Source: Paludibacter sp. (GTDB taxonomy: Bacteria > Bacteroidota > Bacteroidia > Bacteroidales > Paludibacteraceae). Taken from it: 64,000 nucleotides of DNA. The position numbers were made by a program, and so were the translations under genes. Position 1 is the stretch's first letter; every line of letters starts with the position of its first letter. The notes beneath the pieces were generated by a model. The model did no database searches. It worked only from the letters and a program-made list of their open reading frames with translations, and was not told the origin of the DNA. The stretch lies in contig JARLGX010000010.1 of NCBI GenBank assembly GCA_031292575.1, positions 1-64,000 of the forward strand. Direction: 5' to 3'. This document shows, one piece after another, positions 2,428-29,396 of the stretch.

Positions 2428-2454
2428 TAGCATGTAATTTTAAAATTGGAGAAA

Positions 2455-4533: not shown

Positions 4534-4551
4534 GTTGCTGACATTTTTCGT

Positions 4552-4585
4552 TTCCGTTATGCAGCCGATATCCTGCATAACGGAA
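4552..4585. terminator. Hairpin between topB and DUF1896 gene
   Basis: A perfect 13-bp inverted repeat (TTCCGTTATGCAG, 4552-4564, with its complement at 4573-4585) and an 8-nt loop, 18 bp after the topB stop. There is no long T-run after it, so it may be a partial terminator or an mRNA processing or stability element separating the two halves of the operon. Confidence 0.5.
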
Positions 4586-4647
4586 TTATACACTCTACAA
4601 AATAACCAATAGATTAAATTGATTCTAACAATAAAATTCCACGAAGT

Positions 4648-10778: not shown

Positions 10779-11669
10779 ATGTCAATTAATCGTATAAAAT
10801 TACATGTTAAATCTAATTATATGAAACAATACACTCAAGGCCTCCAAAAAAGAATAAATTACGAGATTCAGAAAATTGAATTGGAAGAAGGCGATGTTTT
10901 TGATAAATTGGTTAGGATTTCAACCTTGTTAGAAAGCTCTTTTGATGAGCTCAAAACATTTATTTGTAAAAACTCATTTTGTGATGAGATGGAAGAAATT
11001 TGTTTTTTTAAAGAAATAAAACCTCAAATATTTAGTAAGTTGATTTACTACAGTAGTATTTATAAGTTCGAGATGAATCGCCCTACAGGGTGTGAAGCCT
11101 TACAAAAAGAATACACACTTCATCAATTTGAAAGGTTGAACGAATTCTTTATAAATAATATTGACTTCTATAAGTATTACCGTGCTCGAAGAACAGATCA
11201 AGACACACATTATTTCTTGAGAGGGAAACCGGATATTGAATTGTATTTTGATAATTTTTATTTTGAACGGGATCCTAATTTTTCAACAGGTTTTGATTTC
11301 AAGGTTGCAAGAATCATTGCAAACGATATGTTGAGTATATTTCTCAATGAAGAGTTATCTAAATTAGATCATACTGTAAATAAAGAAGTTGAAAGAACAA
11401 GTTTCCCAAAGACTAAAGAAACCTGGACGGACTCGAAAGTAGCCCTTGTAGAACTTATTTATGCAATTCATTCTACAGGGAGCATAAATTTTGGAAAATA
11501 CGATTTAAAAAGTTTGACTTCGTATTTTGAAAATGTATTCAATATTGAGTTGGGAGATATCTATCGGACATTCCTTGAAATTCGTGGACGTAAGGGCAGC
11601 AGGGTACAATATCTTGATCAACTCCGCAAAAATTTAATTGAACGAATGGATAAAGCAGATAGTCTGTAA
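10779..11669 (+). CDS. rteC: RteC-family regulator of element excision
   Basis: A 296-residue protein resembling RteC, the CTnDOT regulator that activates the excision operon. Visible family-like stretches are the helical N-terminal half (KLIYYSSIYKFEMNRPTG), HYFLRGKPDI in the middle, and a C-terminal winged-helix-like part ending in IRGRKGSRVQYLDQLR. The 5' region is AT-rich. An internal ATG at 10821 would give a shorter form beginning MKQYTQ, close to the length of shorter family members. Two small helix-turn-helix genes follow 290 bp downstream, matching the rteC-to-xis logic of CTnDOT. No two-component rteA/rteB genes are seen here, so the upstream signal is unknown. Confidence 0.85.
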   Translation: MSINRIKLHVKSNYMKQYTQGLQKRINYEIQKIELEEGDVFDKLVRISTLLESSFDELKTFICKNSFCDEMEEICFFKEIKPQIFSKLIYYSSIYKFEMNRPTGCEALQKEYTLHQFERLNEFFINNIDFYKYYRARRTDQDTHYFLRGKPDIELYFDNFYFERDPNFSTGFDFKVARIIANDMLSIFLNEELSKLDHTVNKEVERTSFPKTKETWTDSKVALVELIYAIHSTGSINFGKYDLKSLTSYFENVFNIELGDIYRTFLEIRGRKGSRVQYLDQLRKNLIERMDKADSL

Positions 11670-11862
11670 ATCAGTTATTTAATTGTAAATCATACTAGTA
11701 GATATTTCCCAAGTTGTTCCCAAGTTGGATTCTCTGATTAGCATTTAATTTCGAGTATAATATGCTTTGTTTCGTTTTAAAATGACCACTAATTTGTATT
11801 TTTTCTTGCTCTACCCAAGTTCCAATTTTCGTACTTAGAATATTTACTTCGCCAACTAGTTT

Positions 11863-11913
11863 ATTCACAAGCCATTCAATTTTTCTTTAAAAAAGTTTCC
11901 CCAGCTTGTGAAT
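11863..11913. promoter_or_regulatory. Inverted repeat upstream of xis-like gene, candidate RteC site
   Basis: Perfect 10-bp arms ATTCACAAGC (11863-11872) and GCTTGTGAAT (11904-11913) are separated by 31 bp. They lie just upstream of a degenerate -7 box (GACCTTTG, 11933-11940) that is 16 bp from the ATG at 11957. A dyad next to a poor promoter fits activator-dependent expression. Binding by RteC is inferred from CTnDOT. Confidence 0.45.
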
Positions 11914-11956
11914 TTTGTCTTTTTATAATCTTGACCTTTGTTGAAAAAATACTACT

Positions 11957-12316
11957 ATGGATGTAATAACTATTGAATCAAAGGCATTTAGGGAATTGGA
12001 AACAAAAATCGATTCGATTGCCAAATTTGTAACGGATTTTAAGCCTGCAACTGTTGAAAATCAGGACGAAACCTGGGTTGATAATTACGATGTGTGTTCC
12101 TTTTTAAAGATTAGCGAACGTACTTTACAACGGTTACGTACGAAAGGATTGATTTCCTATTCAATTATTTCAGGGAAATCGTATTATACTATCTCCGAAT
12201 TAAAAAGGGTGTTAAGTGAAAGACTTGTACGAAGGAATGAAGAATGTTTGCAAGAGCTAATCAAGAATCATAATTTGTATGCTGAGAAGCGTAGAATGAA
12301 TAAGGGGAAGAAATGA
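11957..12316 (+). CDS. Excisionase-like helix-turn-helix protein 1
   Basis: A 119-residue basic protein. A short N-terminal helix (about 1-30) precedes a MerR/excisionase-type winged helix (HTH_17-like, about 46-95): NYDVCSFLKISERTLQRLRTK, then GKSYYTISELKRVL. Such proteins occur in pairs downstream of rteC in Bacteroidetes elements, where the CTnDOT counterparts Xis2c and Xis2d help the integrase excise the element. The similar protein encoded 46 bp downstream suggests a duplicated pair. It is probably co-transcribed with that gene and positively controlled by RteC (inference). Transcription regulation rather than excision remains possible. Confidence 0.75.
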   Translation: MDVITIESKAFRELETKIDSIAKFVTDFKPATVENQDETWVDNYDVCSFLKISERTLQRLRTKGLISYSIISGKSYYTISELKRVLSERLVRRNEECLQELIKNHNLYAEKRRMNKGKK

Positions 12317-12362
12317 GATTCTGAACTTTGTTAACTGTTTATCATGTATTGAATTTTGGATT

Positions 12363-12650
12363 ATGGAAATCAATAAGGAAACATTTGAGGATTGGATGAA
12401 AAAGCTTTCCGAAAAACTCGAAACAACTGACAAGAAACTTGAGCGGTTACTTAACCATCAAGCCTGTTTGAATGGAGATGAACTGTTGGATAACCAAGAC
12501 CTGATTGGCATGCTTAAAGTGAGTCACCGTACACTACAGCGGTATCGCAGTAAAGGTAAATTGCCTTATTGCAATATGAACGGGAAGTCCTTTTATCGAT
12601 TAACTGATGTTCAGAAATTTATTAATGACCAATTTGAAGGAAATAAGTAA
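12363..12650 (+). CDS. Excisionase-like helix-turn-helix protein 2
   Basis: A 95-residue paralogue of the preceding protein. An N-terminal amphipathic helix (about 1-33, EDWMKKLSEKLETTDKKLER) is followed by the same HTH core: NQDLIGMLKVSHRTLQRYRSK, then GKSFYRLTDVQKFI. The shared pattern LKxSxRTLQRxRxKG...GKSxY supports common ancestry. It lacks the C-terminal basic extension of its partner. The operon position and rteC neighbour suggest an excision or regulatory role; no direct evidence is visible. Confidence 0.75.
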   Translation: MEINKETFEDWMKKLSEKLETTDKKLERLLNHQACLNGDELLDNQDLIGMLKVSHRTLQRYRSKGKLPYCNMNGKSFYRLTDVQKFINDQFEGNK

Positions 12651-12678
12651 ATGCATGTTCATTCTTGCAATAGAATGA

Positions 12679-13935
12679 TTAAACCCGAAAGGCTCTTGCT
12701 TTACGTTCTATTTCAGTGGGGGAAACCTTATACTTTGCAGCTGTTTTTCGCCAGTTGGAAACTGCTTTAATTACTTCTGTTTTAATTTCTGCAGCACGTT
12801 TGTCGGTTAGTAAATAATAAGGGGCAGTATTCATAACCAAATCAATATCTAAAGAATTGTCTGTTTCATCAATATTGAGTTTTAAGCCGGTTCCGGTTTC
12901 GTTTGCATTAATGTCAAATGCTGGTGATAAAGTCCAGCCGGATTCTGTGTAAAGAAATCCATGATTCCGTAAATGATCATCCGTATTGGAAATACAAACA
13001 GAAAAGAGCACTCTTCGGAAAAGCTCTTCCAAATTTGCTGTTGCATTAGCACATTCAGATTTAATGAATGAAACTACATCCAAATAACTAACACCACTAT
13101 CCGCATCGTCTCCGTCGGTTCGCTGAAGCAGTGTCATAGCTGAGGCAAAGTGGATCCGTTTATTATCTTCAGTTCTGTCAAAGCGTTGGGATAAATAAGT
13201 ATAATAGGGGGAGGCTAACTTTTTAATAAAGGCATTCGGAACCATAATTTTAGCCTGAATGGCTAGCTCATGGACAATCATTTCCCATAATCCTACATCT
13301 GAATCATCTTTTTTACTGGGAAATTTCGCAATCCATTGTTTCTCGTTTGTATCAACAACATCTGCTTTAGGACGAGCACCTCCCAATGAAGACCCGGGAG
13401 CAATAAGTTGATTAATCCATTTTAGAGAAGACTCATCTAACTCATCGGCGTTTTTTTCATATTGTTTTACTGCATATTCAAGATCCCTCAAAGAAGTCCA
13501 TGGTGGAGCAGCCAATTTTGCATCATTACTCATAAAATCTCCTTCTTCACTTTCTTTGAAACGAAGTCCACCCATGCGATGATTATCATGCACTCCCAAT
13601 AGAAAATCAATTCCAACTAAAGTTCGAGGGTCAGTTTTATCTATTTTAGATAAGAGAATTTCCCTGCGTTTCATCAATAATTGACCCCACCTGTCTGGGG
13701 ATGAATCTTTGAAAATACCAAAATTATCATTGGAGGAGGCATAGTGGATTCCGGAGAAAAGGGGTAATTCGGGATCAATAGAGATGCCGGTTTTTATCCA
13801 GTCGCTATCATATTCAAAGGAATAGATAGCCTTTCCACGAAGCGATAGAAAATATAATCTTCCTATCAATTGTGGGGAATCAAACATATACCAATCTGCA
13901 TACACCAGTATTTCTTTTTCCTTATTCTGTTTCAT
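12679..13935 (-). CDS. hipA: HipA-family serine/threonine kinase toxin
   Basis: A 418-residue HipA-like kinase, slightly shorter than E. coli HipA. Residues about 1-125 match the N-terminal HipA subdomain. The Gly-rich ATP loop is GSSLGGARPK at 181-190, a putative ATP-binding Lys is in WIAKFP (204), the catalytic loop is NTDDHLRNHGF (D319 and N324), and the metal-binding Asp is in FDIN (341). All kinase residues look intact, so the toxin could be active. Known HipA phosphorylates glutamyl-tRNA synthetase; related HipA proteins have other targets, so the substrate is uncertain. It lies 6 bp after hipB on the same strand, a standard antitoxin-first operon, within mobile-element cargo. Confidence 0.9.
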   Translation of the reverse strand: MKQNKEKEILVYADWYMFDSPQLIGRLYFLSLRGKAIYSFEYDSDWIKTGISIDPELPLFSGIHYASSNDNFGIFKDSSPDRWGQLLMKRREILLSKIDKTDPRTLVGIDFLLGVHDNHRMGGLRFKESEEGDFMSNDAKLAAPPWTSLRDLEYAVKQYEKNADELDESSLKWINQLIAPGSSLGGARPKADVVDTNEKQWIAKFPSKKDDSDVGLWEMIVHELAIQAKIMVPNAFIKKLASPYYTYLSQRFDRTEDNKRIHFASAMTLLQRTDGDDADSGVSYLDVVSFIKSECANATANLEELFRRVLFSVCISNTDDHLRNHGFLYTESGWTLSPAFDINANETGTGLKLNIDETDNSLDIDLVMNTAPYYLLTDKRAAEIKTEVIKAVSNWRKTAAKYKVSPTEIERKARAFRV

Positions 13936-13941
13936 AATAGA

Positions 13942-14319
13942 TTAATCAAATTTCGGCGTTTCAGAACTTCCCTTGTCAATTACATGATCAATCGCTGATA
14001 CGGTATTTTTCTTTTTCGGGGCTCTTTTTTTTACGATCAGCCCGGCATCCTGAATCTGTCTGCCTACCGGATCTTTATCTGCTATCAACAATAAATCTTC
14101 TTCAAGGCGTAAAATGGACAGCACTTGCAAATAGCTCCCCAGTGAAACTGATGGAGAACCATTCTCCAAATTTCCCAATGTGGATGTGGCAATACCGGCT
14201 CGCTCGGCCATGGAGCGTATGGATAGTTTCCGTCGCAAGCGGGCTAACTTAATATTCTCACCGATTGTAGTAAGGATATTCTTTTGTTTCTGAGTGTAAC
14301 TTGTTCCCTTTGATTTCAT
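13942..14319 (-). CDS. hipB: HipB-like XRE-family antitoxin/repressor
   Basis: A 125-residue DNA-binding protein. A Cro/C1-type helix-turn-helix spans about 15-75 (ENIKLARLRRKLSIRSMAERAG, then GIATSTLGNLENG). A basic tail rich in Lys, including KKRAPKKKNT, follows. It is the likely antitoxin of the downstream hipA and the operon repressor. A 10-bp direct repeat, TGATATTTCA, flanks the candidate promoter upstream, fitting autoregulation. The basic C-terminal extension is longer than in E. coli HipB and may mediate toxin contact or further DNA binding (inference). Confidence 0.85.
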   Translation of the reverse strand: MKSKGTSYTQKQKNILTTIGENIKLARLRRKLSIRSMAERAGIATSTLGNLENGSPSVSLGSYLQVLSILRLEEDLLLIADKDPVGRQIQDAGLIVKKRAPKKKNTVSAIDHVIDKGSSETPKFD

Positions 14320-14325
14320 AATATA

Positions 14326-14367
14326 TGATATTTCAATACAAAAGTATATATAATATTTGATATTTCA
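14326..14367 (-). promoter_or_regulatory. hipBA promoter with repeated operator candidate
   Basis: On the minus strand TACTTTTG (14339-14346) fits the TAnnTTTG -7 box, 20 bp before the hipB ATG. The 10-mer TGATATTTCA occurs on each side of it, at 14326-14335 and 14358-14367 (32-bp period). Such placement would let HipB cover the -7 and -33 regions. Confidence 0.45.
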
Positions 14368-14550
14368 TGTATTAGAATAATATGAGTAGAAAATAATTAA
14401 TAAAGTATCGCTGCAAATTTAATAGTTTAAGTAGTGATTTAAGAAAATTATTTTATTCCAAATGTATTGAATAATAGTAAAACGATGAATAAAATTCTTT
14501 TATTTGTTTTATGTTCTGCTACCTAACTGTATTCTCTGTCGATATTCTTT

Positions 14551-15114
14551 TTATATTTCTGTAGGGGGAGTATACCCGATTGGTCGGCGTGGTTTTTCTT
14601 TTTGTTTGTTTGCTTGCAATTCAACCAATGTTTGATTAATTATCTCTAACTGTATCCGCGTATCTTCATTTATGTCGTTTTGGTTTGTGAATATATCTTC
14701 AATAGACTGTTTGAGTTTCTGCATTTCGCTTTGAAGTTCTCCAATTCTATCAACAGATGGATTTAATACCAACTGACGTAGGGTTGTAAATGCCCGCATA
14801 ATACTTATATTGATTTGGATTGCTGTTTGAGAAGTAAGAATACTACTAAGCATTGCAACACCTAATTCTGTAAAGGCAAAAGGCAATTTTCTTATACCGC
14901 CCCAACTTGATATCACAATTTGTGACATCAAGATTTCGCTTTCATCTTCTGATAGTTGAAACATAAAGTCATTAGGAAATCTGTTAATGTTGCGTTTTAC
15001 AGCTTGGTTCAACGCTCGTGTTTCTACTCCGTACATCTCTGCTAAGTCACGGTCAAGCATTATCTTATAACCTCTTATCTCGTATATTTTGCTCAGAATA
15101 AGTTGTAATTCCAT
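14551..15114 (-). CDS. ORF6N domain DNA-binding protein
   Basis: A 187-residue protein. Residues 1-100 match the ORF6N domain of phage and mobile-element regulators: [41 protein letters not shown], and [17 protein letters not shown]. The C-terminal part (about 115-165) is a coiled coil, followed by a basic Pro-rich tail. The function is unknown; the fold suggests DNA binding. The gene is monocistronic within the cargo region. A 13-bp dyad occurs both just upstream of the start and inside the gene, which could reflect autoregulation. Confidence 0.85.
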
Positions 15115-15492: not shown

Positions 15493-16719
15493 CTAAATCT
15501 TGAACATTTTCTCTATGCCTTCTAATTTTCCGGCAAGTGCCTGCATATCATTACTAATTTTACTGTCAGTGATTCGGGCATATATTTGTGTAGTACGAAT
15601 ATTGGTGTGTCCAAGCATTTTACTTACTGTCTCAATAGGAACACCTTTTGCTAAAGTTATTGTTGTGGCAAAAGTATGGCGAGCAATGTGAAAAGTCAGC
15701 TCTTTGTCTATTTCACACAAATCACCAATCTCTTTTAAATAGGCATTCATTTTTTGATTACTTAGAATAGGAAGTAATTTATTATTAGGCGATTTTCCTT
15801 TGTATTTATCTAAAATCATTTTTGGAACATTTAATAATAAGATATTAGATTGGATATTTGTCTTTTGTCGTTTAGCCATTACCCATAAATTTCCATCAAA
15901 GGACGTTCGAATATTTTTCTCAGTCAGATTATATACATCAATATAAGCAAGACCAGTGAAACATGAGAAAATAAATATATCGCGAACCAGCTCCAAGCGT
16001 TTGGTACTAAATTTTTTTTGCAAAATTTTTTCAATATCTTCCTGAGTTAGGTAACCTCGGTCAACTTTAGTCAACTTAATTTTGTAATTAGCAAAAGGAT
16101 CATGAATAATCAATCCATTATTACGTGCAATAAGTATAATCCGCTTGAGAAATTGCATGAATTTAGCTGTAGTGTTTGCATTACATCCTGCAGTGGTTAA
16201 AAGATATATTTCAAAATCGCACAAAAACATGTGTTTAATTTCTTTTAGAGATATATCTGTCAACTTATATTTGAGCAACAAAAAGTTTTGAAGATGTTTG
16301 AGAGTGACCTTATATTTTTGATAGGTTCCTGGTGATTTACTAATGCCTATAAGTTTAAAAACATCCTCATTGTGCTTTTGAAAGAGATTTATAAGTGTTT
16401 CATGATATTCACTTACTCCCAAAAAATCATTCTTCACCTTTTCGGCAGTTACATAATTATCTTTTTGTTGAATTTCGTGATAAATTTTATACAGCGATGC
16501 TTTGATTTCATTTAACATCCCATTGAATTGTTTATTTTCATAGGATTGTCCAATAGCTCTACCCATTTTTACACTCCAATTATTGGGTTTGATTTCCAAT
16601 TTGGTGTTAAACTGTGCGATGTGTCCATCGACGGTAATGCGTGCTACAATAGGCATTTTACCATCTTTTCGAGTTGCATTCCTTTTTACGTAAAAAAGGA
16701 CTTTAAATGTACTTTTCAT
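15493..16719 (-). CDS. int: Tyrosine integrase of the element
   Basis: A 408-residue phage-type tyrosine recombinase of the Bacteroidetes class. It has an N-terminal arm-binding/SAM-like region (about 1-100), a core-binding domain (about 105-210) and a catalytic domain (about 220-395). Visible catalytic residues are Lys in AKRQKT (283-286), H344 and R347 in HIARH, H371 in LGH, and nucleophile Y380 in TTQIYAR. The usual first Arg in the TGLR motif is Ala (FTGLAYIDV, A258), as reported for IntDOT, where Ser occupies the place. It lies with its 5' end about 270 bp from the 3' end of ssrA, consistent with element insertion there. A -7-like TATTTTTG (16740-16747, minus) is 20 bp upstream of the ATG. 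Confidence 0.9.
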   Translation of the reverse strand: MKSTFKVLFYVKRNATRKDGKMPIVARITVDGHIAQFNTKLEIKPNNWSVKMGRAIGQSYENKQFNGMLNEIKASLYKIYHEIQQKDNYVTAEKVKNDFLGVSEYHETLINLFQKHNEDVFKLIGISKSPGTYQKYKVTLKHLQNFLLLKYKLTDISLKEIKHMFLCDFEIYLLTTAGCNANTTAKFMQFLKRIILIARNNGLIIHDPFANYKIKLTKVDRGYLTQEDIEKILQKKFSTKRLELVRDIFIFSCFTGLAYIDVYNLTEKNIRTSFDGNLWVMAKRQKTNIQSNILLLNVPKMILDKYKGKSPNNKLLPILSNQKMNAYLKEIGDLCEIDKELTFHIARHTFATTITLAKGVPIETVSKMLGHTNIRTTQIYARITDSKISNDMQALAGKLEGIEKMFKI

Positions 16720-16961: not shown

Positions 16962-16991
16962 TGGTTGTTGCCTAGTGGCTAAACCTTTCAG

Positions 16992-17385
16992 TGGAGCTGG
17001 AGGGAGTCGAACCCTCGTCCAAACAAGGAAATAATATGCTTTCTACATGTTTATCTTCGCTTAGGTTTTCGTGCGCGGGCAAGACCGAAGCCACCAACCT
17101 GCGCCTTATCCTTTTTATTTCATCGCGCCTCCAAGGCTAAGCGTGACTATCCTCGATTTAGCTGCATCTCCATATCAAATAGCCTCGAGGCGACGGCATT
17201 TGGGAAATGTCCCGTTCCAGCACCTAGTACCGGAATTAAGCCTAATCTACTCTATTCGATTAAGCAGCAAGAGCGTAGTTATTTTCGCCAGTTATAGTTG
17301 TGAGATCCGAGATTTACGAGCCGTTTTCTCAATGCTCGACATGCTTACATACCCTTTCTACCTGCTGTCAAAACCAAACAGCCCC
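16992..17385 (-). ncRNA. ssrA: Transfer-messenger RNA (tmRNA)
   Basis: One-piece tmRNA of about 394 nt. The 5' end GGGGCUG pairs with CAGCUCC near the 3' end to form the acceptor stem, and the T-arm carries GGTTCGACTCC. CCA is not encoded (genomic bases after the discriminator A are CTG). The tag reading frame (17260-17289) reads GENNYALAA then TAA, the known Bacteroides-type tag; the first Ala comes from charged tmRNA. tmRNA with SmpB rescues stalled ribosomes and tags products for proteolysis. It lies downstream of rny on the same strand. Its 3' end faces the integrase, making it the likely attachment gene of the element. Confidence 0.97.
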
Positions 17386-19891: not shown

Positions 19892-20644
19892 TTATTTTAA
19901 TTTTCGGGTTAAATCCAACAATCCATTGATAATACTAAGAGGATGAGCCGGATTACCAGGAATATAAAGGTCGACAGAATACTTTTCAAGAAAACTACGG
20001 TCGATAGCCGGACTATCAGCAAACATTCCACCACTTATTGCATCAGTTCCTACTAATACAATTATTTTAGGTTCAGGCGTTGCATCGTAACATATTTGTA
20101 CTGCTTTGGCCATGTTTTGCGTGATAGGACCTGTGATAACAATTCCATCCGCATGTCTGGGTGAAGCTACAAAATCAATCCCATAACGACTCATATCGAA
20201 CTGCACATTGTTGGCGGCATTGAGTTCCATTTCGCAGCTATTATCGCCACCAGCCGAGATTTGACGCAGTTTAAGTGACCATCCAAAAACTTTGTGAATT
20301 TCTTTGCGTACAATGTCAGGGTTCACTTCCACGGGTTTATCTTCACCTTCTTTTATAATTAAATTTTCTAATACGTTGCTGGCTAACTTATAATCTTTAG
20401 TAAAAGTGATTTTTTCGGGGAACTGTTTGGAACATTCTCCACAAAAAGTACATTTTCCTAAATCAATACGTATTGGATTATTCAATATTGCTTTTGTCGG
20501 GCACAAATCTGTCAATTCTTTTTCGTTCACTTTCTCAAGGCTAATAACGGGACGGCCTCGGAAAATTCCAGGAACTTCAACTTTTGTTGGGTTTGGAATG
20601 TATTGTTTACCTTGATGGTATACTATTTTGATGTTGTCTAACAT
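19892..20644 (-). CDS. Ehr-like complex: ferredoxin plus NuoB/HycG-like small subunit, N2 site degenerate
   Basis: A 250-residue fusion. Residues about 40-80 hold one ferredoxin-type [4Fe-4S] site (C48 in LCPTKAI plus C65, C68 and C71). Residues about 120-245 match the small subunit of group 4 [NiFe] hydrogenases and complex I NuoB (SPRHADGIVITGPIT, then ISGG, then PLSIINGLL). Of the four Cys that bind the proximal/N2 cluster in that family, only C137 remains; the other positions read D134, D201 (GTDA) and N231 (PGNP). The protein may therefore lack the normal terminal cluster. It is the last gene of the seven-gene operon, following the large subunit after a 125-bp repeat-bearing gap. Confidence 0.88.
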   Translation of the reverse strand: MLDNIKIVYHQGKQYIPNPTKVEVPGIFRGRPVISLEKVNEKELTDLCPTKAILNNPIRIDLGKCTFCGECSKQFPEKITFTKDYKLASNVLENLIIKEGEDKPVEVNPDIVRKEIHKVFGWSLKLRQISAGGDNSCEMELNAANNVQFDMSRYGIDFVASPRHADGIVITGPITQNMAKAVQICYDATPEPKIIVLVGTDAISGGMFADSPAIDRSFLEKYSVDLYIPGNPAHPLSIINGLLDLTRKLK

Positions 20645-20665
20645 AAGATAATTGTTTAAGAACCT

Positions 20666-20769
20666 GACCCCTAGAGGGGAACTAAGTTAGTTCTGTTTAT
20701 TGATATTTTTTTTCTTTGCATATACAAGTAAACTTAGTCTTTGAGTCCCCTTTAGGGGATTCAGGGGTC
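20666..20769. repeat. CCCCT-type inverted repeat inside the Ehr-like operon
   Basis: The left part GACCCCTAGAGGGGA (20666-20680) and a longer right part (20732-20769, with TCCCC TTTA GGGGA and AGGGGTC) are inverted relatives; the right part also folds on itself. They occupy the gap between large- and small-subunit genes and may set relative expression or RNA processing. Confidence 0.65.
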
Positions 20770-22269
20770 TTATAAATCGTGTCCTGAATAAGATAGATTA
20801 AAGCTTTTATTGCAAATAGGAAAATCAGATATTTCGTTATTTCTGACTGATAAAGCCAATGCCAGCCAATTATGAAACGAAGGATCTTTGATTTTATACA
20901 TCATTAATTCTCCTTTTTTGTCGGTCAAACCACAATGGCAAATTTCTCCACGCCATCCTTCTACCAACGAAATACAAAAGGAACTTGGTTGAGGAGGATT
21001 AAAATTTTTAATTTCAGAAACTTGAGCCGGAACTTCGGCTATTAATTTTCGGATATAGTTGAGAGATTGTTCCACTTCTTCTTTTCGCAATTGGATACGA
21101 GAATAAACATCGCCGTGGCGTTTTAAAATGGGGTTATGATTTAATTCCGAATAAAGTGCGTAAGAATGCGATACGCGAACATCCCGATTCAAGCCAGTCA
21201 TGCGGGCAGCCATTCCCACCGCGCCAATATTTACAGCATCGGCGTTAGTAACTACTCCGGTTCGTTCAAAGCGTGATAAGGCACTGGATAGGTGAAACAA
21301 TTTATCTGCCATTTCAATAAATTCAGGTTCAAAAATATCCAATATTTGTTTTAATCTCACGGCTAAAGCCGGAGTAAAAGGAAATTGATTTTGTCCCGGT
21401 CTTATTAATCCTTTTGCCAATCGATTGCCACCCCATTCCTGTAAAAAATTAATAATCGGTGTTCGAAGCCGGCCAAAAACAGAACTGCCTAACTGATAAG
21501 CAATGTCGGTGCAAGCTCCACTTAAATCGCCAACATGAACTGCAATTCTTTCCAGTTCCAGAGCCATTGTGCGTGAGAACTCAATGTCTTTTGTTGCTTC
21601 AAAGCCACATAAACTTTCCCAAACATGAGCAAACGTTGTGCCGTGACCAACAACAGTATCTCCGGTAATATCTTCTGCCAATGTGGCTCGTTGAAGCAAA
21701 TTCTTTTTTTCAATAAAAAGTTGTTCAATGCCACGGTGTTGATACCCCAACTGAATTTCCAAATGCAGAATCTGCTCACCGTTACAAATAAATCTGAAAT
21801 GTCCGGGCTCAATAATTCCGGCATGAATAGGTCCTACACCAACTTCATGAAGTTCTTCACTATCAATGGCAAAAAATGGATAATTGTCCATGATTTGTGA
21901 TTTATCCTCTCTGTTGAAAGCATAACGAACCGGTTTGAGCCAGGGATGATCGATATAGTTTATGCCAAAGTTTTCGTGGATTTCGCGTTCAAACTTTTCA
22001 AAACACAATAGTTTAGCACTTAGGGATTCCAAATCGTGAGCTTTGTGAACCAAACAGGTTGAAATCATTATTTCGTGTGTTATATCATCGGCAATACAGC
22101 TAATTAGTTTTACGTTGTTTCCCACTTTATAACCAAAATAATTCACGCAATGTCTTTCAATATGGCCCGACACTAAATCAAGGTTCATGTCATAAAATGC
22201 TTCATAGTTACTTTCAGGAATATCCGAAAGCAAAATAGTCTGGTTATTTTTTATGCTGATATAGTTCAT
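20770..22269 (-). CDS. Ehr-like complex: HycE/NuoCD-like large subunit without Ni-site cysteines
   Basis: A 499-residue protein. Residues about 1-130 match the NuoC (30 kDa) domain and about 145-490 the NuoD/hydrogenase large-subunit domain (LGYQHRGIEQL, then ALELERIAVHVGDLSG). In HycE-type hydrogenases the first Ni-binding motif is CGIC; here the aligned stretch reads TGDT (about 202-205). The C-terminal DPCxxC is replaced by FNLSYSGHDL, with no Cys. The [NiFe] site therefore cannot form in the usual way, as described for energy-converting hydrogenase-related (Ehr) complexes. The ATG at 22269 is preferred over TTG at 22275. It is the sixth gene of the operon. The reaction catalysed is unknown. 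Confidence 0.9.
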   Translation of the reverse strand: MNYISIKNNQTILLSDIPESNYEAFYDMNLDLVSGHIERHCVNYFGYKVGNNVKLISCIADDITHEIMISTCLVHKAHDLESLSAKLLCFEKFEREIHENFGINYIDHPWLKPVRYAFNREDKSQIMDNYPFFAIDSEELHEVGVGPIHAGIIEPGHFRFICNGEQILHLEIQLGYQHRGIEQLFIEKKNLLQRATLAEDITGDTVVGHGTTFAHVWESLCGFEATKDIEFSRTMALELERIAVHVGDLSGACTDIAYQLGSSVFGRLRTPIINFLQEWGGNRLAKGLIRPGQNQFPFTPALAVRLKQILDIFEPEFIEMADKLFHLSSALSRFERTGVVTNADAVNIGAVGMAARMTGLNRDVRVSHSYALYSELNHNPILKRHGDVYSRIQLRKEEVEQSLNYIRKLIAEVPAQVSEIKNFNPPQPSSFCISLVEGWRGEICHCGLTDKKGELMMYKIKDPSFHNWLALALSVRNNEISDFPICNKSFNLSYSGHDL

Positions 22270-22314
22270 AATCAATTAATAATTTACAATTATCTTTGAC
22301 TTTTTACCTCTGAA

Positions 22315-23745
22315 TCAATGAGGTAAAAGTGAAATACTATTTTTTATTAAATCTACAAAAATCAACGGAGGATTTAATCCCAAATAAGCAGCCCCACCGA
22401 TAAGAATAAACTGCGAAACAGAACGCCAGGCACTTATAACCGGAACTGTAGTTTCATCAAAATTGACAGGGGGAATAAATAATAATTTGAAAATATTTTT
22501 AGCAAATGCCCAAATTATAAGAGTAAGTAATAAAAGCACTACCAGTAATAAAATCAGTTGGTTCGATTCGAACATGGAGCGGAAAATCAAAAATTCGCTC
22601 ACAAACATTCCAGAAGGTGGCATGGCTGTTACACTTATAAATGCAAGTAGTACAACTATTGCTCCTGTGGTATTATATTTGAAATAATTACCTAATTGAT
22701 AAATATTTTTATTTTTATAGACCCTGTAAATTTGATTATATTGAAAAAATAGACTCGACTTAACAAAAGAGTGCAATACAATATGCAAAATGGCAGCGTA
22801 ATAACCAATTCCACCAGCTGCAATTCCTAACATAACCAATCCCATGTGCTCAACACTCGAATAGGCCATCATACGTTTGATATTTTTTACTTTTATCATG
22901 TAAACAGCTGCAATAAACAAGGATATAAACGCCGCAATGCCTACAACCAAACTTGCCCAATGAAGTAAAGGCGTGTTTGCTACCACAATATAAAAACGAA
23001 AAATACCTACAAAACCCATACACATAACAATACTCGAAAGCAAAGCTGCAGCTGGTCCGGGAGCTTTATCCTTAGCATCAACACCGGCAGTGAACATGGG
23101 GAAAAGTCCTAACTTTGCAGTAAATCCGGTAAAAATAAACAAAAATGCCAACCGCAGCCAAGATAGATTTAAAAAAGACTTGTGAATTAATAAGTTTTTG
23201 AATGATAAATCGTCCGAACCACCCTTGGCAAAAGAAAGGCTTAGAAACAAAATACCGATAAACACAAAAGTAATACTGATTGCGCATATAAAAACATATT
23301 TCCAGGTACCTTCCAATGCTAATTTATTACGGTGATGATAAATTAGAGCAGAAGCACTTAACGTAGTTATTTCAGTAAAAATCCAAACCACTGCAATATG
23401 ATTGGCCAGATAGGCTGCACTTACAGCAGTTATTAAAAGGACTAAAGCACCAAAGTAAGTTGCTCTGGAGCGAGGAGTTTTTTCTTCACTTTCTTCGATG
23501 TAAATCCAACTGTGTATTACTGCCGGAATGGAAATGATGGTGGCAGTCAACAGCATGATAATTCCCAACGAATCGAAAGTGAAATAGATTGATTCGGTTT
23601 GGTTGTAATTCATACAGGCATAGATGGCAAATGTGCACTGTAAGGCAATAAACAACCAAATTAAACCATAATTCAACACTTTCCCACGATTAAAAAAAAG
23701 AATAGTTCCGATTAAGGCTGATCCTGCTAAATATATTTCTATCAT
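22315..23745 (-). CDS. Ehr-like complex: HyfF/NuoN-like antiporter-type subunit
   Basis: A 476-residue membrane protein with about 13-14 transmembrane helices, of the Mrp/NuoL-M-N antiporter-like family and closest in style to HyfF. It keeps the TM5 Glu (VVWIFTEITTLSA), the TM7 Lys (FTAKLGLFPM) and the His-rich TM11 region (ILHIVLHSFVKSSLFF), residues tied to proton movement in relatives. It is the fifth gene of the operon and the third antiporter-like subunit of the complex. Confidence 0.88.
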   Translation of the reverse strand: MIEIYLAGSALIGTILFFNRGKVLNYGLIWLFIALQCTFAIYACMNYNQTESIYFTFDSLGIIMLLTATIISIPAVIHSWIYIEESEEKTPRSRATYFGALVLLITAVSAAYLANHIAVVWIFTEITTLSASALIYHHRNKLALEGTWKYVFICAISITFVFIGILFLSLSFAKGGSDDLSFKNLLIHKSFLNLSWLRLAFLFIFTGFTAKLGLFPMFTAGVDAKDKAPGPAAALLSSIVMCMGFVGIFRFYIVVANTPLLHWASLVVGIAAFISLFIAAVYMIKVKNIKRMMAYSSVEHMGLVMLGIAAGGIGYYAAILHIVLHSFVKSSLFFQYNQIYRVYKNKNIYQLGNYFKYNTTGAIVVLLAFISVTAMPPSGMFVSEFLIFRSMFESNQLILLLVVLLLLTLIIWAFAKNIFKLLFIPPVNFDETTVPVISAWRSVSQFILIGGAAYLGLNPPLIFVDLIKNSISLLPH

Positions 23746-23783
23746 AAGCGTAAATTTACTTTTTACTATAAACTATCAAGTAT

Positions 23784-24416
23784 TTAATAGTCTTTTAAAT
23801 TGGTGAGTTGATTCACATCTATGTCTTTGAATACATCTCCTATTTTATTCAAAAAGAGACCTAAAATCAAAACGCTGGCAAAAATATCCAACATTATTCC
23901 CAAATTCACTAACATGGGCATTTCGTTTCCAACTGCCAACGACAACACAAAAACGCCATTTTCAATAATCAAATAACCCATGACATGAGTAATGATTTTT
24001 CGGCGGGATGCAATGAAATAGAGTCCGGTGAAAAGTGTGGAAAGTGCCACCACGAAGAACATTTTGTCTAAATAGCTTTCTTCCATCGTATTTGAAAGCA
24101 AAATAGTAGTAATCACAATAAAGGTAGTAATTATCAACGACACAAAATTTGGCACATAAGGTTCCGCTTCACGTGTGATATGATTTCGCTTGAGCACATA
24201 TTTTAAAAACGCAGGAACTGCAATCGATTTGATTATAATCGTTTCAAGCAGGATAAATATCAGATTGAGAGTATTTATGCTTTTCAGTTCTAAAAATGCT
24301 ACAAAAAAGAGCAAGATCCCCTGCAAAGCCAGCACGTTTACATAAGTCGACATGCGATTGGCAATAGACATGTAAAACAGTGAAATAAGAAAAACAATTA
24401 ACAGTACGTGTAACAT
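23784..24416 (-). CDS. Ehr-like complex: HyfE-like membrane subunit
   Basis: A 210-residue membrane protein with about six to seven transmembrane helices, like HyfE of hydrogenase-4, which combines NuoK-like features in one chain. Membrane Glu residues are present (LLETIIIKS in TM3 and YLIIENGVFVL in TM6), equivalent to conserved carboxylates of NuoK-type subunits. It lies between the HyfC-like and HyfF-like genes, the same order as E. coli hyf without hyfD. Confidence 0.85.
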   Translation of the reverse strand: MLHVLLIVFLISLFYMSIANRMSTYVNVLALQGILLFFVAFLELKSINTLNLIFILLETIIIKSIAVPAFLKYVLKRNHITREAEPYVPNFVSLIITTFIVITTILLSNTMEESYLDKMFFVVALSTLFTGLYFIASRRKIITHVMGYLIIENGVFVLSLAVGNEMPMLVNLGIMLDIFASVLILGLFLNKIGDVFKDIDVNQLTNLKDY

Positions 24417-24434
24417 ATTATCTAAATTTTCAAA

Positions 24435-25340
24435 TTAAATAAATTTTCCGGAAACAAGTAAAGCCCCGAAAAATATCAGCAGAGATACCGACGAGAGCAC
24501 AACAATAAACTGGGCATTGTGATTCATTCTGAACCTTGCCATAAAAGATTCGATCATCCCTACGCAAAAAGCAAGGAAAATCTGCATCGCAATAAACATA
24601 GGTATGGCATACTCGTAAGCTATAGTACCACTAAAAAGATTAAAAATTATGGCTCCATAAATTGCAAATTTCAGGTAACCGGCTGTTAAAATCAATCCCA
24701 GATCAAATCCGCTATTGTCAAGAATCATTACTTCGTGAACCATTGTAAGTTCAAGGTGTGTTTTCGGGTCATCGAGCGGCATGCGGCTGTTTTCAATCAT
24801 GGCAATCATTAGAAATACAACTCCGGCCAAAACGCCCAATGCATAGGTAATGGACGAACCGAGATGCAAGGTCGAAAATATTTCTTGAAAAGAAGTATGA
24901 CCGGTCATTAAAGCCAGTGAACCCATTAAAATAAAAAAAGCAGGTTCAACAAACATGGAGTAAAGCGCTTCGCGGCTTGCACCCATTCCCTCAAAACTGC
25001 TGCCCGTATCCATTGCTCCTATGATGCTGAAAAACTTTCCAAGCCCCAACACGTATGCAAAGAATATAAAATCGCCATTGAAGCTGATTAATCCTTTCGA
25101 TTGCCCAAAAGGAACAACCAACATAGCTACAAATACCGACGAGAAGTAAATGGTGGGGGCTATTTGAAACACAAAGCTGGATGTTTCGCTGTAAACCGCA
25201 CCTTTTTTGAAAAGGCGGATAACATCCTTAATCGGCTGAAATATACCCGGTCCCTTTCGCCCTGAAGCAATACTTTTTGTACGGATAATTATTCCGGTAA
25301 AAAAAGTTGCGGCTAAGATGATTAATAAAAAACTCAGCAT
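24435..25340 (-). CDS. Ehr-like complex: HyfC/NuoH-like membrane subunit
   Basis: A 301-residue integral membrane protein with about eight helices, resembling HyfC/HycD/NuoH, which links the soluble redox arm to the membrane arm. Family-like features include the cytoplasmic loop GRKGPGIFQPIKDVIRLFKK, ENSRMPLDDPKTHLELTMVHE and several buried acidic residues. The charged loop facing the redox arm is intact, suggesting that the complex still assembles. Confidence 0.9.
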   Translation of the reverse strand: MLSFLLIILAATFFTGIIIRTKSIASGRKGPGIFQPIKDVIRLFKKGAVYSETSSFVFQIAPTIYFSSVFVAMLVVPFGQSKGLISFNGDFIFFAYVLGLGKFFSIIGAMDTGSSFEGMGASREALYSMFVEPAFFILMGSLALMTGHTSFQEIFSTLHLGSSITYALGVLAGVVFLMIAMIENSRMPLDDPKTHLELTMVHEVMILDNSGFDLGLILTAGYLKFAIYGAIIFNLFSGTIAYEYAIPMFIAMQIFLAFCVGMIESFMARFRMNHNAQFIVVLSSVSLLIFFGALLVSGKFI

Positions 25341-25374
25341 AATATTGTTGTTTAATGGTTGATTTGTTAATTTT

Positions 25375-27402
25375 TTATAGTTGCTTTAAAAATTCAAGAA
25401 ACAGAATTATTTTGTCGTACAAAATAGGAATACTGATAATTAGAATAATAAAGGTAATTCCGTATAAAATATAAAATTGCAATTTGCCGTTTTGAAAGAA
25501 ACGAAACCGACCCATAAAGGTTTTAAAATTAACAACCGGGTAATCGATTAACCATTTTTCAATTTTATCATATGGATGTGTTTCGAGATGCGCATCAGTT
25601 GGAAAAATCCCTTGAACTTCTTTTTCTCTTTTTGAAATTAAAAAGAACATTCCCAATAATTTACTATAAGTTTTTACAAAGGAACTTGCTGTATATTGAA
25701 TTTTTGATGTTGGTGCAGTGTATCCGCAAGCCCAGGTTGGCAAAACAGTGACGGTTCGATTATTTAACGCCCATTTTCTAATACCCAAAAGGAGTAAAAC
25801 TAATAATATCAAATACCAACTTGCATGACTGACCGATACCAATGCATCGATATCATTCCCCTGAAAACTTACAAATTGAAGTTGTTTCAAATTGGTAAAT
25901 AAATGAACTGGTTGTATCAATACATCCAGGAATAGTCTGGGAAACAGTCCAATACATATTATAACTGCCGCAATTGCATACAGTGGCATTAATTGAAAAA
26001 AAGAAACTTCTTTTATTTCATGTTGAAAAGAGTGCCGGGTATTTCCCAAAAAAACGACTCCGAAAGCTTTGGTAAAACACATCAAAGCCAATCCGCCAAT
26101 CATTGCCAATCCCATGACGGTAAAAATAATGAAAATTAAAGAACCCATTTGCGCATTCTGAATCCAATGATAAAGACCCGTATAAAGAATGAACTCAGAA
26201 ATAAAACCGTTAAATGGTGGTAAACCACAAATCGCAAGTGCTGCAATTAGAAATAATATGCTTGTTTGTGGCATTTTTTTTACAATTCCTCCTAGTTTTT
26301 CAATATCAAGCGTATGTGTTGCCTGATAAACATTGCCGGTAGTAAAAAACAGGAGCGATTTGAAAAGCGAATGATTGAGCGTGTGTAGCAAAGCTCCTGC
26401 AAACCCCAGCGAACTAAGTACCGGATTATTGATTCCCAACCCAATGCATCCCAATCCAATTCCGATTCCTATAATTCCAATATTCTCAATACTATGATAA
26501 GCAAGCAATTTCTTCAGGTTATGTTGCAGAATAGCCAGCATCACACCATAAATTCCCGAGATAATTGATATTACCAAAATCAGGTTTCCAACAGTTATAT
26601 AATTTACCTGTATTAGTAAAAGCATTCGGAGTATACCAAAAATCCCGATTTTAATCAGTATTCCTGACATAATACCCGAAATATGTGCCGGTGCAGCAGG
26701 ATGTGCATAAGGCAACCATGTATGAAAAGGTACAAAACCTGCTTTGATGGCAAATCCGTTAAAAAAGAACAAAAATAACATTAACGAAAGTGCACCCGAA
26801 TGTGCCATCGAATAACGGTGAATGGCACTGAAATCATAACTGCCTGTTTGACTGGCTACCCAGATAAATCCAATCGTTAAAAAAAGGATGGAGATGTGCG
26901 ACTGAATCAAATAGTTAATTCCAGCTCTGATAGTTGCAACTTTTTCATGTTCAAAGATAATACTCAAAAAAGCTGAGAGTGCCATAATTTCCCATGCAAC
27001 CAGAAAAGCTATACTGTTTTGAATGGCACACAAACTTATCAACGAAGCATGAAGTAATACAAACAGGATTCCGTGCAAATTTAAATTCTTTGGCTGATTC
27101 ACATAGGCTTTCATATAGAATAAACCATAGAAACCGCCCGTAATAAATCCAAAATTGATAATCAGCATAAACCAGGCAGAAAGGGAATCTATTTCTAGAT
27201 TAATGGGACCACTTAAATAACTTCCCGGCAAAGTGATGATGAAATTTTGTCCATTCAGTACCTGAATAGCAAGATAACTGGTAATAAAAGCAATAACACT
27301 TACAGCACAATAAACAGCAATTGCTTTCCCTTTCATTTTCAGAAAAGGGATAAGGCATATTGCTACGAATGGAATAAGTATAAAGCTCCAAACCAGGGTC
27401 AT
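25375..27402 (-). CDS. Ehr-like complex: HyfB-like antiporter-type subunit 2
   Basis: A 675-residue HyfB/HycC/NuoL-type protein with about 15-16 transmembrane helices. It keeps the TM5 Glu (FLVAWEIMALS), the TM7 Lys and nearby His (FAIKAGFVPFHTWLPYAHPAAP), SLFKSLLFF and a late Lys (MCFTKAFG). The C-terminal segment CGYTAPTSKIQYTASSF is typical of HyfB/HycC. Its ATG overlaps the stop of the preceding paralogue as ATGA (27399-27402), implying coupled translation. Confidence 0.88.
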   Translation of the reverse strand: MTLVWSFILIPFVAICLIPFLKMKGKAIAVYCAVSVIAFITSYLAIQVLNGQNFIITLPGSYLSGPINLEIDSLSAWFMLIINFGFITGGFYGLFYMKAYVNQPKNLNLHGILFVLLHASLISLCAIQNSIAFLVAWEIMALSAFLSIIFEHEKVATIRAGINYLIQSHISILFLTIGFIWVASQTGSYDFSAIHRYSMAHSGALSLMLFLFFFNGFAIKAGFVPFHTWLPYAHPAAPAHISGIMSGILIKIGIFGILRMLLLIQVNYITVGNLILVISIISGIYGVMLAILQHNLKKLLAYHSIENIGIIGIGIGLGCIGLGINNPVLSSLGFAGALLHTLNHSLFKSLLFFTTGNVYQATHTLDIEKLGGIVKKMPQTSILFLIAALAICGLPPFNGFISEFILYTGLYHWIQNAQMGSLIFIIFTVMGLAMIGGLALMCFTKAFGVVFLGNTRHSFQHEIKEVSFFQLMPLYAIAAVIICIGLFPRLFLDVLIQPVHLFTNLKQLQFVSFQGNDIDALVSVSHASWYLILLVLLLLGIRKWALNNRTVTVLPTWACGYTAPTSKIQYTASSFVKTYSKLLGMFFLISKREKEVQGIFPTDAHLETHPYDKIEKWLIDYPVVNFKTFMGRFRFFQNGKLQFYILYGITFIILIISIPILYDKIILFLEFLKQL

Positions 27403-29396
27403 GGTACGATATTAAAAAATGTCAGAATAAAAATAGCAACAATAAACACAATGCCGTAAAGTACATATGATTGAATACGTCCGTTTTGAATAAACTTAAA
27501 ATAATTTGCACTATAAATCAGTCGGTTGGTTGCAATGCGTATAAACCTGAATTCAAAGAAGTCGTGATAATGCGACGTATATTTTTTGTCTTTTGGAAAA
27601 ATTTCACCCGCTTGTAACTCTTCATATTGCTTCCGCTCGATAACTATAAAGTTAAACGTTTTGCTCAGCGATTTGGAAAATGATTTGGCTGTATATTGTA
27701 TTTTGCTGGTTCCTGCAGTATAACCACAACCCCAGGTTGCACCTACAACTTGCGATTTTCCGCGCAAAGCCAATACTCTTATTCCCCAAAAACAAATAAT
27801 TACTCCAACTAAAAGCATTGAATACAAGCTGATGCTTCGCATGATAGAAATGTAATTTGCAAATTCAGTTGGTTGTGGAATCACAACGCTTTTGGTTAGC
27901 CCAGATAATATATTGCCGATAACCTGTAAATAAACTTGCGGAAAAATAGCTACACTGAGCATAGCCACAATAATTATGTATTGAGGAACCAGCATCTGAA
28001 TCGACACTTCGTGAGGTTTAAGAGCTAAAGGCTGCCGTTGAGTTCCTAGGAAAATTGTGCTGAAAGTCTTTGTAAATGCCAGTATCGAAAGTCCTCCAAT
28101 GATACTTAAACCGGCAAATGTCAGTACCATTAGAATTATTTGAGTCATGTCATGCAATTGGATTCCTTGTATCAATCCGCTGTAAATCAAAAATTCAGAG
28201 ATAAATCCATTAAAAGGTGGCATTCCGCCTATCGCAATAGCTCCAATTAAAAAAATAACCGCCGTGCGGGGCATGCTTTTAATCAGTCCGCCAAGCTTTT
28301 CCATGTCACGCGTGTGTGTTTGCTGATAAACCGATCCTGCCGAATAAAACAATAATGATTTGAAAAGTGAGTGGTTTAATACATGTAACAATGCACCACC
28401 AAATCCCAGATAATATAAAATAGGACTATTATTACCTAATCCAATTAATCCGATGCCAATGCCAATGCCAATAATACCAATGTTTTCGATAGTGCAATAA
28501 GCCAGCATTCTTTTGAAATCGCGATGAACAGCTGCATTTAGAATTCCGTATAAGCCCGTCAAAACTGAAATACTGATAAGTATTTCGCCTAACAGCAGAT
28601 AATCACTTTTAAGATAAGATATTATTCGAAAAATACCGTAAATGCCCAATTTCACAATAACGCCTGACATAACGCCTGAAACATGCGAAGGTGCTGCAGG
28701 ATGTGCATGAGGCAACCAACTATGAAAAGGTATAAATCCGGCCTTCAACCCAAAACCTACAAAGAAAACCAAAAATAGCCAGATATTACTGTTTGATCCA
28801 AAGTAGGTTGTAAAAGTATCGAAACTAAATGAACCTGTTTGAAAATAGACCCAGATAAAACCAATGGTCAAAAACACCACGCTGATATGCATTTGAACCA
28901 GGTAATTTATCCCGGCTTTTAAAGTTTTGGGATTATGAGTATCAAAAATAACCAGCATCATCGAAGACAGAGACATGATTTCCCAGGCAATCAGAAAGGC
29001 AAAGCCATTTTGAATCATACACACCCAAACCATCGACAACTGGAAAAGTACAAATAAAATCCAATGCAAACTGAGCTTTTTGGCAGAATTGTCATACGCT
29101 TTCAAATATCCTGAACCATAAAAAACTCCGGTAATGCAGGTGAAGTTGATTATCAGAATAAACCAGGCCGACAGCTGATCAATCCGTATGATAATGTCGC
29201 CAAAAATCTCTCCACCATAAAACGTGAAACTTATTATTTGCCCACTCAATGCAAATATTGCCAACCAGCTGGTAACTATCGAGTTGGCTACAACCGCAAT
29301 GGCAGCCACGTTTGCTTTGAAGTTTGCCGGAACAAAACGCAAAGTTACAATTGCCAAAAGGGCAATTATCCAACTCAAATTTATCAATTCAACCAT
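27399..29396 (-). CDS. Ehr-like complex: HyfB-like antiporter-type subunit 1
   Basis: The first gene of the operon: a 665-residue paralogue of the next gene, with the same layout of about 15-16 transmembrane helices. It shows FLIAWEIMSLS (TM5 Glu), FGLKAGFIPFHSWLPHAHPAAP (TM7 Lys and His), HSLFKSLLF and AFTKTFS, plus the HyfB-type tail CGYTAGTSKIQYTAKSF. Two tandem HyfB-like subunits plus HyfF-like give three candidate ion-translocating units, as in complex I. A -7-like TAATTTTG on the minus strand (29420-29427) is 24 bp upstream. Confidence 0.88.
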   Translation of the reverse strand: MVELINLSWIIALLAIVTLRFVPANFKANVAAIAVVANSIVTSWLAIFALSGQIISFTFYGGEIFGDIIIRIDQLSAWFILIINFTCITGVFYGSGYLKAYDNSAKKLSLHWILFVLFQLSMVWVCMIQNGFAFLIAWEIMSLSSMMLVIFDTHNPKTLKAGINYLVQMHISVVFLTIGFIWVYFQTGSFSFDTFTTYFGSNSNIWLFLVFFVGFGLKAGFIPFHSWLPHAHPAAPSHVSGVMSGVIVKLGIYGIFRIISYLKSDYLLLGEILISISVLTGLYGILNAAVHRDFKRMLAYCTIENIGIIGIGIGIGLIGLGNNSPILYYLGFGGALLHVLNHSLFKSLLFYSAGSVYQQTHTRDMEKLGGLIKSMPRTAVIFLIGAIAIGGMPPFNGFISEFLIYSGLIQGIQLHDMTQIILMVLTFAGLSIIGGLSILAFTKTFSTIFLGTQRQPLALKPHEVSIQMLVPQYIIIVAMLSVAIFPQVYLQVIGNILSGLTKSVVIPQPTEFANYISIMRSISLYSMLLVGVIICFWGIRVLALRGKSQVVGATWGCGYTAGTSKIQYTAKSFSKSLSKTFNFIVIERKQYEELQAGEIFPKDKKYTSHYHDFFEFRFIRIATNRLIYSANYFKFIQNGRIQSYVLYGIVFIVAIFILTFFNIVP

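Follow-up and report, generated by a model that had tools for sequence, protein, structure and literature searches.

The operon and its genes

We examined positions 1 to 64,000 of contig JARLGX010000010.1 from Paludibacter sp. (assembly GCA_031292575.1), a 64,000-nucleotide stretch called the window here, and focus on seven minus-strand open reading frames (ORFs) at 19892..29396. Matches in NCBIfam and Pfam give them the transcription order HyfB-HyfB-HyfC-HyfE-HyfF-large-small and, together with the coordinates, bear out the gene order read in an initial annotation. The host genome (G000; 3.46 Mb, Bacteroidota, 99.59% complete) has Paludibacter sp. metagenome-assembled genomes as its nearest named relatives. 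Our analysis confirms that the operon encodes an energy-converting hydrogenase-related (Ehr) type of complex, and the residues at its cofactor sites show that it lost its terminal iron-sulfur cluster, N2, in addition to the NiFe site. The genes are as follows:

27399..29396, minus strand: HyfB-like antiporter subunit B1, 665 residues (NCBIfam hydrogenase 4 subunit B, 5.2e-146, under the curated cut-off)
25375..27402, minus strand: HyfB-like antiporter subunit B2, 675 residues (NCBIfam hydrogenase 4 subunit B, 1.1e-141, under the curated cut-off)
24435..25340, minus strand: HyfC/NuoH-like subunit, 301 residues (Pfam NADHdh, 5.5e-37)
23784..24416, minus strand: HyfE-like subunit, 210 residues (NCBIfam hydrogenase 4 membrane subunit, 5.3e-20)
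22315..23745, minus strand: HyfF-like antiporter subunit, 476 residues (Pfam Proton_antipo_M, 2.9e-40)
20770..22275, minus strand: large subunit, NuoC-like plus NuoD/HycE-like, 501 residues from a TTG start, codon 3 being ATG (Pfam Complex1_49kDa; best PDB profile HycE, 3.9e-58)
19892..20644, minus strand: small subunit, ferredoxin domain plus NuoB/HycG-like domain, 250 residues (Pfam Oxidored_q6, 1.2e-22; best PDB profile MbhJ, 2.5e-39)

The order B-(B)-C-E-F-G-I recurs in 80 named loci, which are the best 80 of 571 relatives and say nothing on absence elsewhere. Two HyfB genes are present in 46 of them and one in 9, each of the latter with 2.8 kb or more visible upstream, while the other 25 are cut before the operon start. 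Single-HyfB N2-less operons occur at L108, L121, L083, L080, L075, L087, L089, L097, and L109 (L and G numbers are our handles for loci and genomes), and with 9/80 named loci holding a single HyfB, a fixed seven-gene operon is ruled out. With a recurring gene order and variable flanks, the operon is complete in itself and comprises six or seven genes.

Cofactor sites of the peripheral arm

Alignment with the Escherichia coli hydrogenase references (loci L143 and L144) and with E. coli NuoI places the cofactor sites as follows:

21655..21666, minus strand: large-subunit residues 204-207, TGDT, replacing the first NiFe CxxC (CGIC in E. coli HyfG/HycE)
20773..20799, minus strand: large-subunit residues 493-501, NLSYSGHDL, replacing the second NiFe CxxC, without a C-terminal extension
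20234..20245, minus strand: small-subunit D134 and C137, N2 ligand positions 1 and 2 (aligned with E. coli HyfI/HycG)
20042..20044, minus strand: small-subunit D201, N2 ligand position 3 (same alignment)
19952..19954, minus strand: small-subunit N231, N2 ligand position 4 (same alignment)
20432..20503, minus strand: small-subunit C48, C65, C68, and C71, ligands of the sole remaining [4Fe-4S] cluster, the N6b equivalent (aligned with NuoI C70, C99, C102, and C105)

E. coli HyfI/HycG has all four N2 Cys, and LDPCYSC of HyfG/HycE aligns with the C-terminal FNLSYSG of the window. The annotation had read TGDT and FNLSYSGHDL in place of the NiFe motifs, substitutions at D134, D201, and N231 with C137 kept, and an intact C48, C65, C68, and C71 site; all three readings agree with these alignments. 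The second ferredoxin set (NuoI C60, C63, C66, and C109) has no counterpart in the aligned window small subunit. From ligand assignments in the Thermus structure, we take the kept ferredoxin cluster to be N6b and the lost one to be N6a. On these residues, the complex has lost its entry cluster N6a and its exit cluster N2 and has kept the middle cluster N6b. The earlier proposal of a redox arm that ends at the ferredoxin domain therefore holds only in part: the terminal cluster is gone, but a simple chain end does not fit, since N6a, whose absence the annotation had overlooked, is gone too.

Compared with known families, the four NiFe Cys of group 4 [NiFe] hydrogenases are missing, as are N2 and the Nqo4 Y87 of complex I; G205 aligns with the quinone-site Nqo4 Tyr87 and D257 with Nqo4 D139. 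The complex shares with Ehr a large subunit without the NiFe CxxC and antiporter-like subunits in the operon (three Proton_antipo_M). The N2 [4Fe-4S] ligands, usually counted among the features of Ehr, are absent in the window complex. Marreiros et al. reportedly defined Ehr in 2013. The three-Cys polysulfide-reducing proximal cluster of the Pyrococcus complex MBS is likewise absent, C137 alone being left of those Cys. The view that this is an Ehr-type complex additionally lacking the terminal cluster, with its ion path intact (see below), is upheld.

The N2-less state is conserved and under selection

We collected 149 unique small subunits, counted as unique when they differ in the last 200 residues, and 120 of these are N2-less like that of the window; because the rows were gathered with the window family as query, 120/149 is no frequency in nature. 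Early counts drew on the window and 80 loci, from which 79 small and 75 large subunits were available. Within the N2-less rows, D134 is invariant (120/120), D201 is present in 118 (Glu in 2), N231 in 119 (Tyr in 1), and C137 in 109 (Ala in 6, Asn in 3, Gly in 2). All four N2 Cys stand in 28 of the 149 small subunits and D/C/D/D in 1, with zero intermediates. The N6b Cys are found in 120/120 N2-less and 28/28 N2-bearing rows. The annotation had set a conserved variant against a decayed single copy. Close homologues share the loss and only more distant same-operon relatives keep four Cys, which favors the conserved variant.

For a hand-picked subset, we compared the 14 least diverged pairs per gene by the ratio of nonsynonymous to synonymous substitutions (dN/dS, Nei-Gojobori). 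In pairs with dS < 1.4, the ratio was 0.047-0.125 for the small subunit and 0.039-0.127 for the large subunit, and it was low alike in N2-less and N2-bearing pairs; values of up to 0.34 occurred at dS > 1.8, near saturation. These values point to purifying selection on the N2-less complex.

With the window's own genome counted in the samples, matches were found in 22/100 relatives (E <= 1e-30), in 17/395 genomes of a phylum sample (1e-25), and in 12/295 genomes of a class sample (1e-30). The class of G421 yielded 21/149 genomes at 1e-30 and the class of G196 14/100 at 1e-25, mostly the same genomes. A search with the small subunit of locus L157 (described below) at 1e-25 hit 88/344 genomes in the order to which the host belongs. 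Judged by E-values and frame lengths, ~12 of the hits resemble ordinary NuoB, so that ~75 family-like genomes remain besides G071. The 32 loci fetched from this and one other search comprised 30 of the N2-less window type, 1 with all four Cys, and 1 with D/C/D/D. Carriers among named strains are Niastella vici DJ57 and Chryseolinea serpens DSM 24574, and relatives elsewhere in Bacteroidota rule out a restriction to the window's genus.

A probable single loss of N2 within the window family

Same-operon relatives elsewhere in Bacteroidota show two states, either N2 plus two ferredoxin clusters or N2 plus N6b alone. The NiFe Cys are missing in every such relative whose large subunit was read, and the NiFe loss is therefore older, as in Ehr. 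The N2-less rows group as a single clade in a tree built from both subunits (ultrafast bootstrap/Shimodaira-Hasegawa-like approximate likelihood ratio test 98/95), and a single origin of this clade was recovered in 96% of 200 bootstrap trees. Its sister is L027 (joint branch 100/100), which has N2 and both ferredoxin clusters, and the rows with N2 plus N6b alone form a separate clade (100/100). The main tree held 59 rows with the four ligand columns omitted, after E. coli NuoB, L117, and near-duplicates had been dropped and the rest thinned; a quick tree of 88 rows dropped large subunits shorter than 330 residues and thinned ordinary N2-less rows to about half. The simplest history on these trees is two losses of N6a and one loss of N2 within the window family, from an ancestor that already lacked the NiFe site and had three [4Fe-4S] clusters (N6a, N6b, and N2).

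A second loss at L157

Locus L157 (genome G071, from the window's order) carries an I-B-C-E-F-G operon at L157:539-7752 on an 8,370-base contig. Its small subunit has 175 residues, no ferredoxin domain that we could see, and D/C/D/D at the N2 site. In a tree of 30 chosen rows, it groups with the rhizobial plasmid complexes L193 and L194, which keep all four Cys (87/84), and well-supported branches through N2-bearing rows separate it from the window clade; the L157 branch is long, and the tree tool flagged its placement. On the basis of this single sequence, the pattern of Asp at ligand positions 1 and 3 and a retained Cys at position 2 seems to have arisen twice, and the L157 operon is possibly an Ehr without any Fe-S cluster.

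The Rhizobium plasmids themselves carry a six-gene Ehr-like operon with a single HyfB, no ferredoxin domain, and intact N2 Cys (L193:1239-8405 and L194:1367-8534), followed in both by a DUF4365 gene.

Membrane arm and folds

The annotation had noted that all three antiporter-like subunits keep the Glu of transmembrane helix 5 and the Lys of helix 7, and this extends to the relatives: E139/K218 of B1 and E138/K220 of B2 are each conserved in 44/44 rows and E125/K211 of F in 65/65. The HyfC acids E183, D190, D191, E197, and E203 are each present in 61/61 rows. AlphaFold2 models were confident for both peripheral subunits, with predicted local distance difference test scores of 93.3 (small) and 89.1 (large). 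The small-subunit model matches MbhJ (root-mean-square deviation 1.7 over 126 columns) and HycG (1.6 over 138 columns), and the best Foldseek match of the large-subunit model is HycE (TM score 0.85 by query length). Since the models are confident and match MbhJ, HycG, and HycE, the folds are predicted to survive cluster loss.

Cysteines gained in the large subunit

Large subunits were compared between N2-less and N2-bearing rows after removal of L067 and L117, which contain internal stops, and of the N2-bearing rows L040, L041, L140, L141, and L142. Two features set the N2-less clade apart:

21511..21513, minus strand: C255, specific to the N2-less clade (97/98 vs 0/21 N2-bearing rows)
20932..20940, minus strand: C446-H447-C448, the Cys specific to the N2-less clade (C446 97/99 and C448 96/99 vs 0/21 N2-bearing rows; not Cys in L027)

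C255 lies two residues ahead of D257, C446 and C448 come after the EGWRGE motif, and all three are presumably near the chamber between the small and large subunits. H42, C43, Q279, W281, and R364 also mark the N2-less clade, yet they are already present in the N2-bearing sister L027 and so preceded N2 loss; this rules out H42, C43, W281, and R364 as changes that accompanied it. H234 is likewise excluded as a newly gained ligand, being found in 25/28 N2-bearing rows. Joint loss of C137 with C446/C448 was also considered and rejected: large subunits were read for 8 of the rows lacking C137, and one or both of C446 and C448 are missing in just two of them, L021 and L130.

Genome context

The 80 named loci have 539 ORFs next to the operon, and no redox partner recurs among them. 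Just three neighbour clusters occur in at least 4 loci, and we read them as an rny-like gene shared by close relatives, a gene resembling those of sigma factors, and a short ORF upstream; with no redox partner among the three, a recurring one beside the operon in these loci is rejected. The maturation gene HypD gave 0 matches in the window's own genome, whereas 4/14 control genomes were positive. The window's genome also encodes ordinary complex I at two loci (NuoB/NuoD) with intact N2 ligands, so the organism is able to make N2. Just upstream of N2-bearing operons lies a gene with a helix-turn-helix domain and PTS_EIIA_2 (EIIA-Ntr-like; L151:2645-3316, L152:17014-17700, L155:2900-3568, and L160:16198-16863), and at the locus of L027 (L153) the small-subunit gene is followed by one for SulP, with kdpA standing divergently beside the operon. 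These neighbours hint at ion homeostasis, and none recurs in the window clade.

What we take to be an ispG/gcpE-like gene borders the window operon at one end, and apparent zapA-like and rny-like genes lie at the other end. Elsewhere in the window, a tyrosine-recombinase integrase gene (15493-16719, Pfam Phage_integrase) adjoins a transfer-messenger RNA gene (16989-17385), as for an integrative element at ssrA. Probable cargo of this element (1042-15114) includes a DUF4099/DUF3945 protein, a 1757-residue N6-methylase plus helicase protein, a HipA_C protein (12679-13935), and an ORF6N protein (14551-15114). A Fer4_20 plus Pyr_redox gene (59768-61225) and a DHODB_Fe-S_bind gene (61719-62540) look like subunits of an Nfn-type NADH:ferredoxin:NADP oxidoreductase. 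In another genome (G646), a lone small subunit (L131, at L158:9214-10005) with all four N2 Cys and two ferredoxin clusters stands among unrelated genes.

An ion translocator without electron through-flow?

We tentatively favor, with a probability of about 45%, the reading that the complex is a membrane ion translocator whose peripheral arm serves as a gate or sensor without electron through-flow. We lean this way because the N2 and N6a ligands are lost and N6b is kept in one clade with an N2-bearing sister and under purifying selection, because the ion-path residues are intact and the NuoB-like and HycE-like folds are predicted confidently, and because no redox partner recurs beside the operon and the genome holds no HypD match. 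The second loss in L157 and the ion-related neighbours of N2-bearing relatives point the same way. Electrons would no longer reach the chamber, presumably more than 20 Angstrom from N6b, and ions would move through the HyfB and HyfF subunits, either antiporter-like or along a regulated H+/cation path, with the peripheral arm as a conformational gate. D134 and D201 may keep a permanent negative charge where the cluster once sat or coordinate a redox-inert metal ion; N6b, now isolated, may be structural or sense the redox state of the ferredoxin pool. With N6a also gone and one isolated cluster left, electron conduction through the arm is less probable than the annotation had implied.

Several points weigh against this gating role. 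The N6b ligands are kept without exception in the 120 N2-less rows, more than a useless cluster needs. A soluble partner may be encoded elsewhere in the genome, and the conserved Cys gained at C255, C446, and C448 could form a new centre. L157 comes from a single contig, with 538 bases left after the large-subunit gene and 618 bases ahead of the small-subunit gene, and a separate ferredoxin gene may be located outside this contig.

The chief rival holds that electron transfer persists, with either C255/C446/C448 of the large subunit or an unusual D134/C137/D201/N231 metal site replacing N2 and linking N6b to the chamber, and we consider it unlikely, if a serious contender. Its best evidence is that the three large-subunit Cys are nearly universal in the clade and found in none of the N2-bearing rows, L027 included; still, L021 lacks both C446 and C448, L130 lacks C448, and the earlier origin of H42, C43, W281, and R364 takes those residues out of any such remodelling. 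The near invariance of D134, D201, and N231 also speaks for this rival, as does the double origin of Asp at N2 ligands 1 and 3 beside a retained Cys at ligand 2. However, Asn is generally a poor cluster ligand and C137 is replaced in 11/120 rows, and for these reasons an Fe-S cluster there is unlikely; the O/N ligation once suggested for this site may apply to some metal. A chamber given over to non-redox chemistry, such as ion-gradient-driven CO2/bicarbonate conversion as proposed for DabAB, where a NuoL-like subunit is paired with a Zn enzyme, seems improbable to us. It would suit the loss of the NiFe ligands and of the Nqo4 Tyr87 equivalent (G205) with D206 and D257 kept, and the SulP anion transporter gene at L153, but this SulP link comes from one genome and no carbonic-anhydrase-like partner recurs beside the operon in the 80 named loci. 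A relict in decay or a sequencing error is so improbable that we set it aside. The loss of two ligand sets does resemble decay at first sight, and there are internal stops in two fetched rows (L067 and L117) and a TAA inside two matches (G905 and G825). Yet the same substitutions in 120/149 unique relatives from many assemblies exclude sequencing error, and the 120 rows in one state with zero intermediates, dN/dS of 0.04-0.13 in pairs with dS < 1.4, and a maintained gene order rule out decay.

Relation to known systems and significance

Ehr complexes are described in PMC6349859 and PMC10284858 as relatives of group 4 hydrogenases whose large subunit lacks the NiFe-binding CxxC, and these papers together with PMC7894505 and PMC5037454 give their function as unknown or hypothetical. 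Examples are Geobacter sulfurreducens GSU0739-45 (PMC7894505), Margulisbacteria (PMC6349859), and comammox Nitrospira (PMC10284858). The window complex resembles Ehr in its group-4-hydrogenase-like subunits, absent NiFe ligands, and antiporter-like membrane arm, and differs from the named examples, compared by description, in lacking the N2 and N6a ligands; the N2 state itself was read in Bacteroidota and rhizobial-plasmid relatives. It shares gene order, folds, and its best large-subunit structural match with E. coli hydrogenase-4/formate hydrogenlyase (Hyf, Hyc; 7z0s), but it lacks NiFe ligands, N2, and HyfA/D/H/J/R genes in the operon, and its ferredoxin is fused to the small subunit. Its small subunit is closest to MbhJ of the Pyrococcus membrane-bound hydrogenase (MBH; 6cfw). 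Like the window complex, Pyrococcus MBS has lost its NiFe ligands, but PMC7684303 describes three clusters kept there, the proximal one bound by three Cys, catalytic, and polysulfide-reducing, whereas the window keeps at most one proximal-cluster Cys. NuoB, NuoC/D, NuoH, and NuoL/M-type folds and the Asp aligned with Nqo4 D139 are shared with respiratory complex I (Nuo), whose NADH module, N2, and Tyr87 equivalent the window complex lacks. Ehr without NiFe ligands is thus known, and the N2-less variant appears to be new; no paper on Ehr complexes without N2 was among the matches listed in the open-access literature, subscription papers lying mostly outside its scope.

At odds short of even, one widespread lineage within the complex I superfamily may have stopped peripheral-arm electron transport at least twice and kept the rest as a gated ion translocator, with the Asp pair in a selected role as a mimic of the cluster charge or as a redox-inert metal site. 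We suggest such a role because each switch put Asp at N2 ligands 1 and 3 and kept Cys at ligand 2. A central question in bioenergetics is whether complex I and its relatives can pump ions only when electrons arrive at N2 and the quinone chamber. The N2-less complex, with N2 removed and the rest selected across Bacteroidota, would offer a natural test of ion movement without electron passage, and N2-bearing sisters with the same operon type permit a direct comparison.

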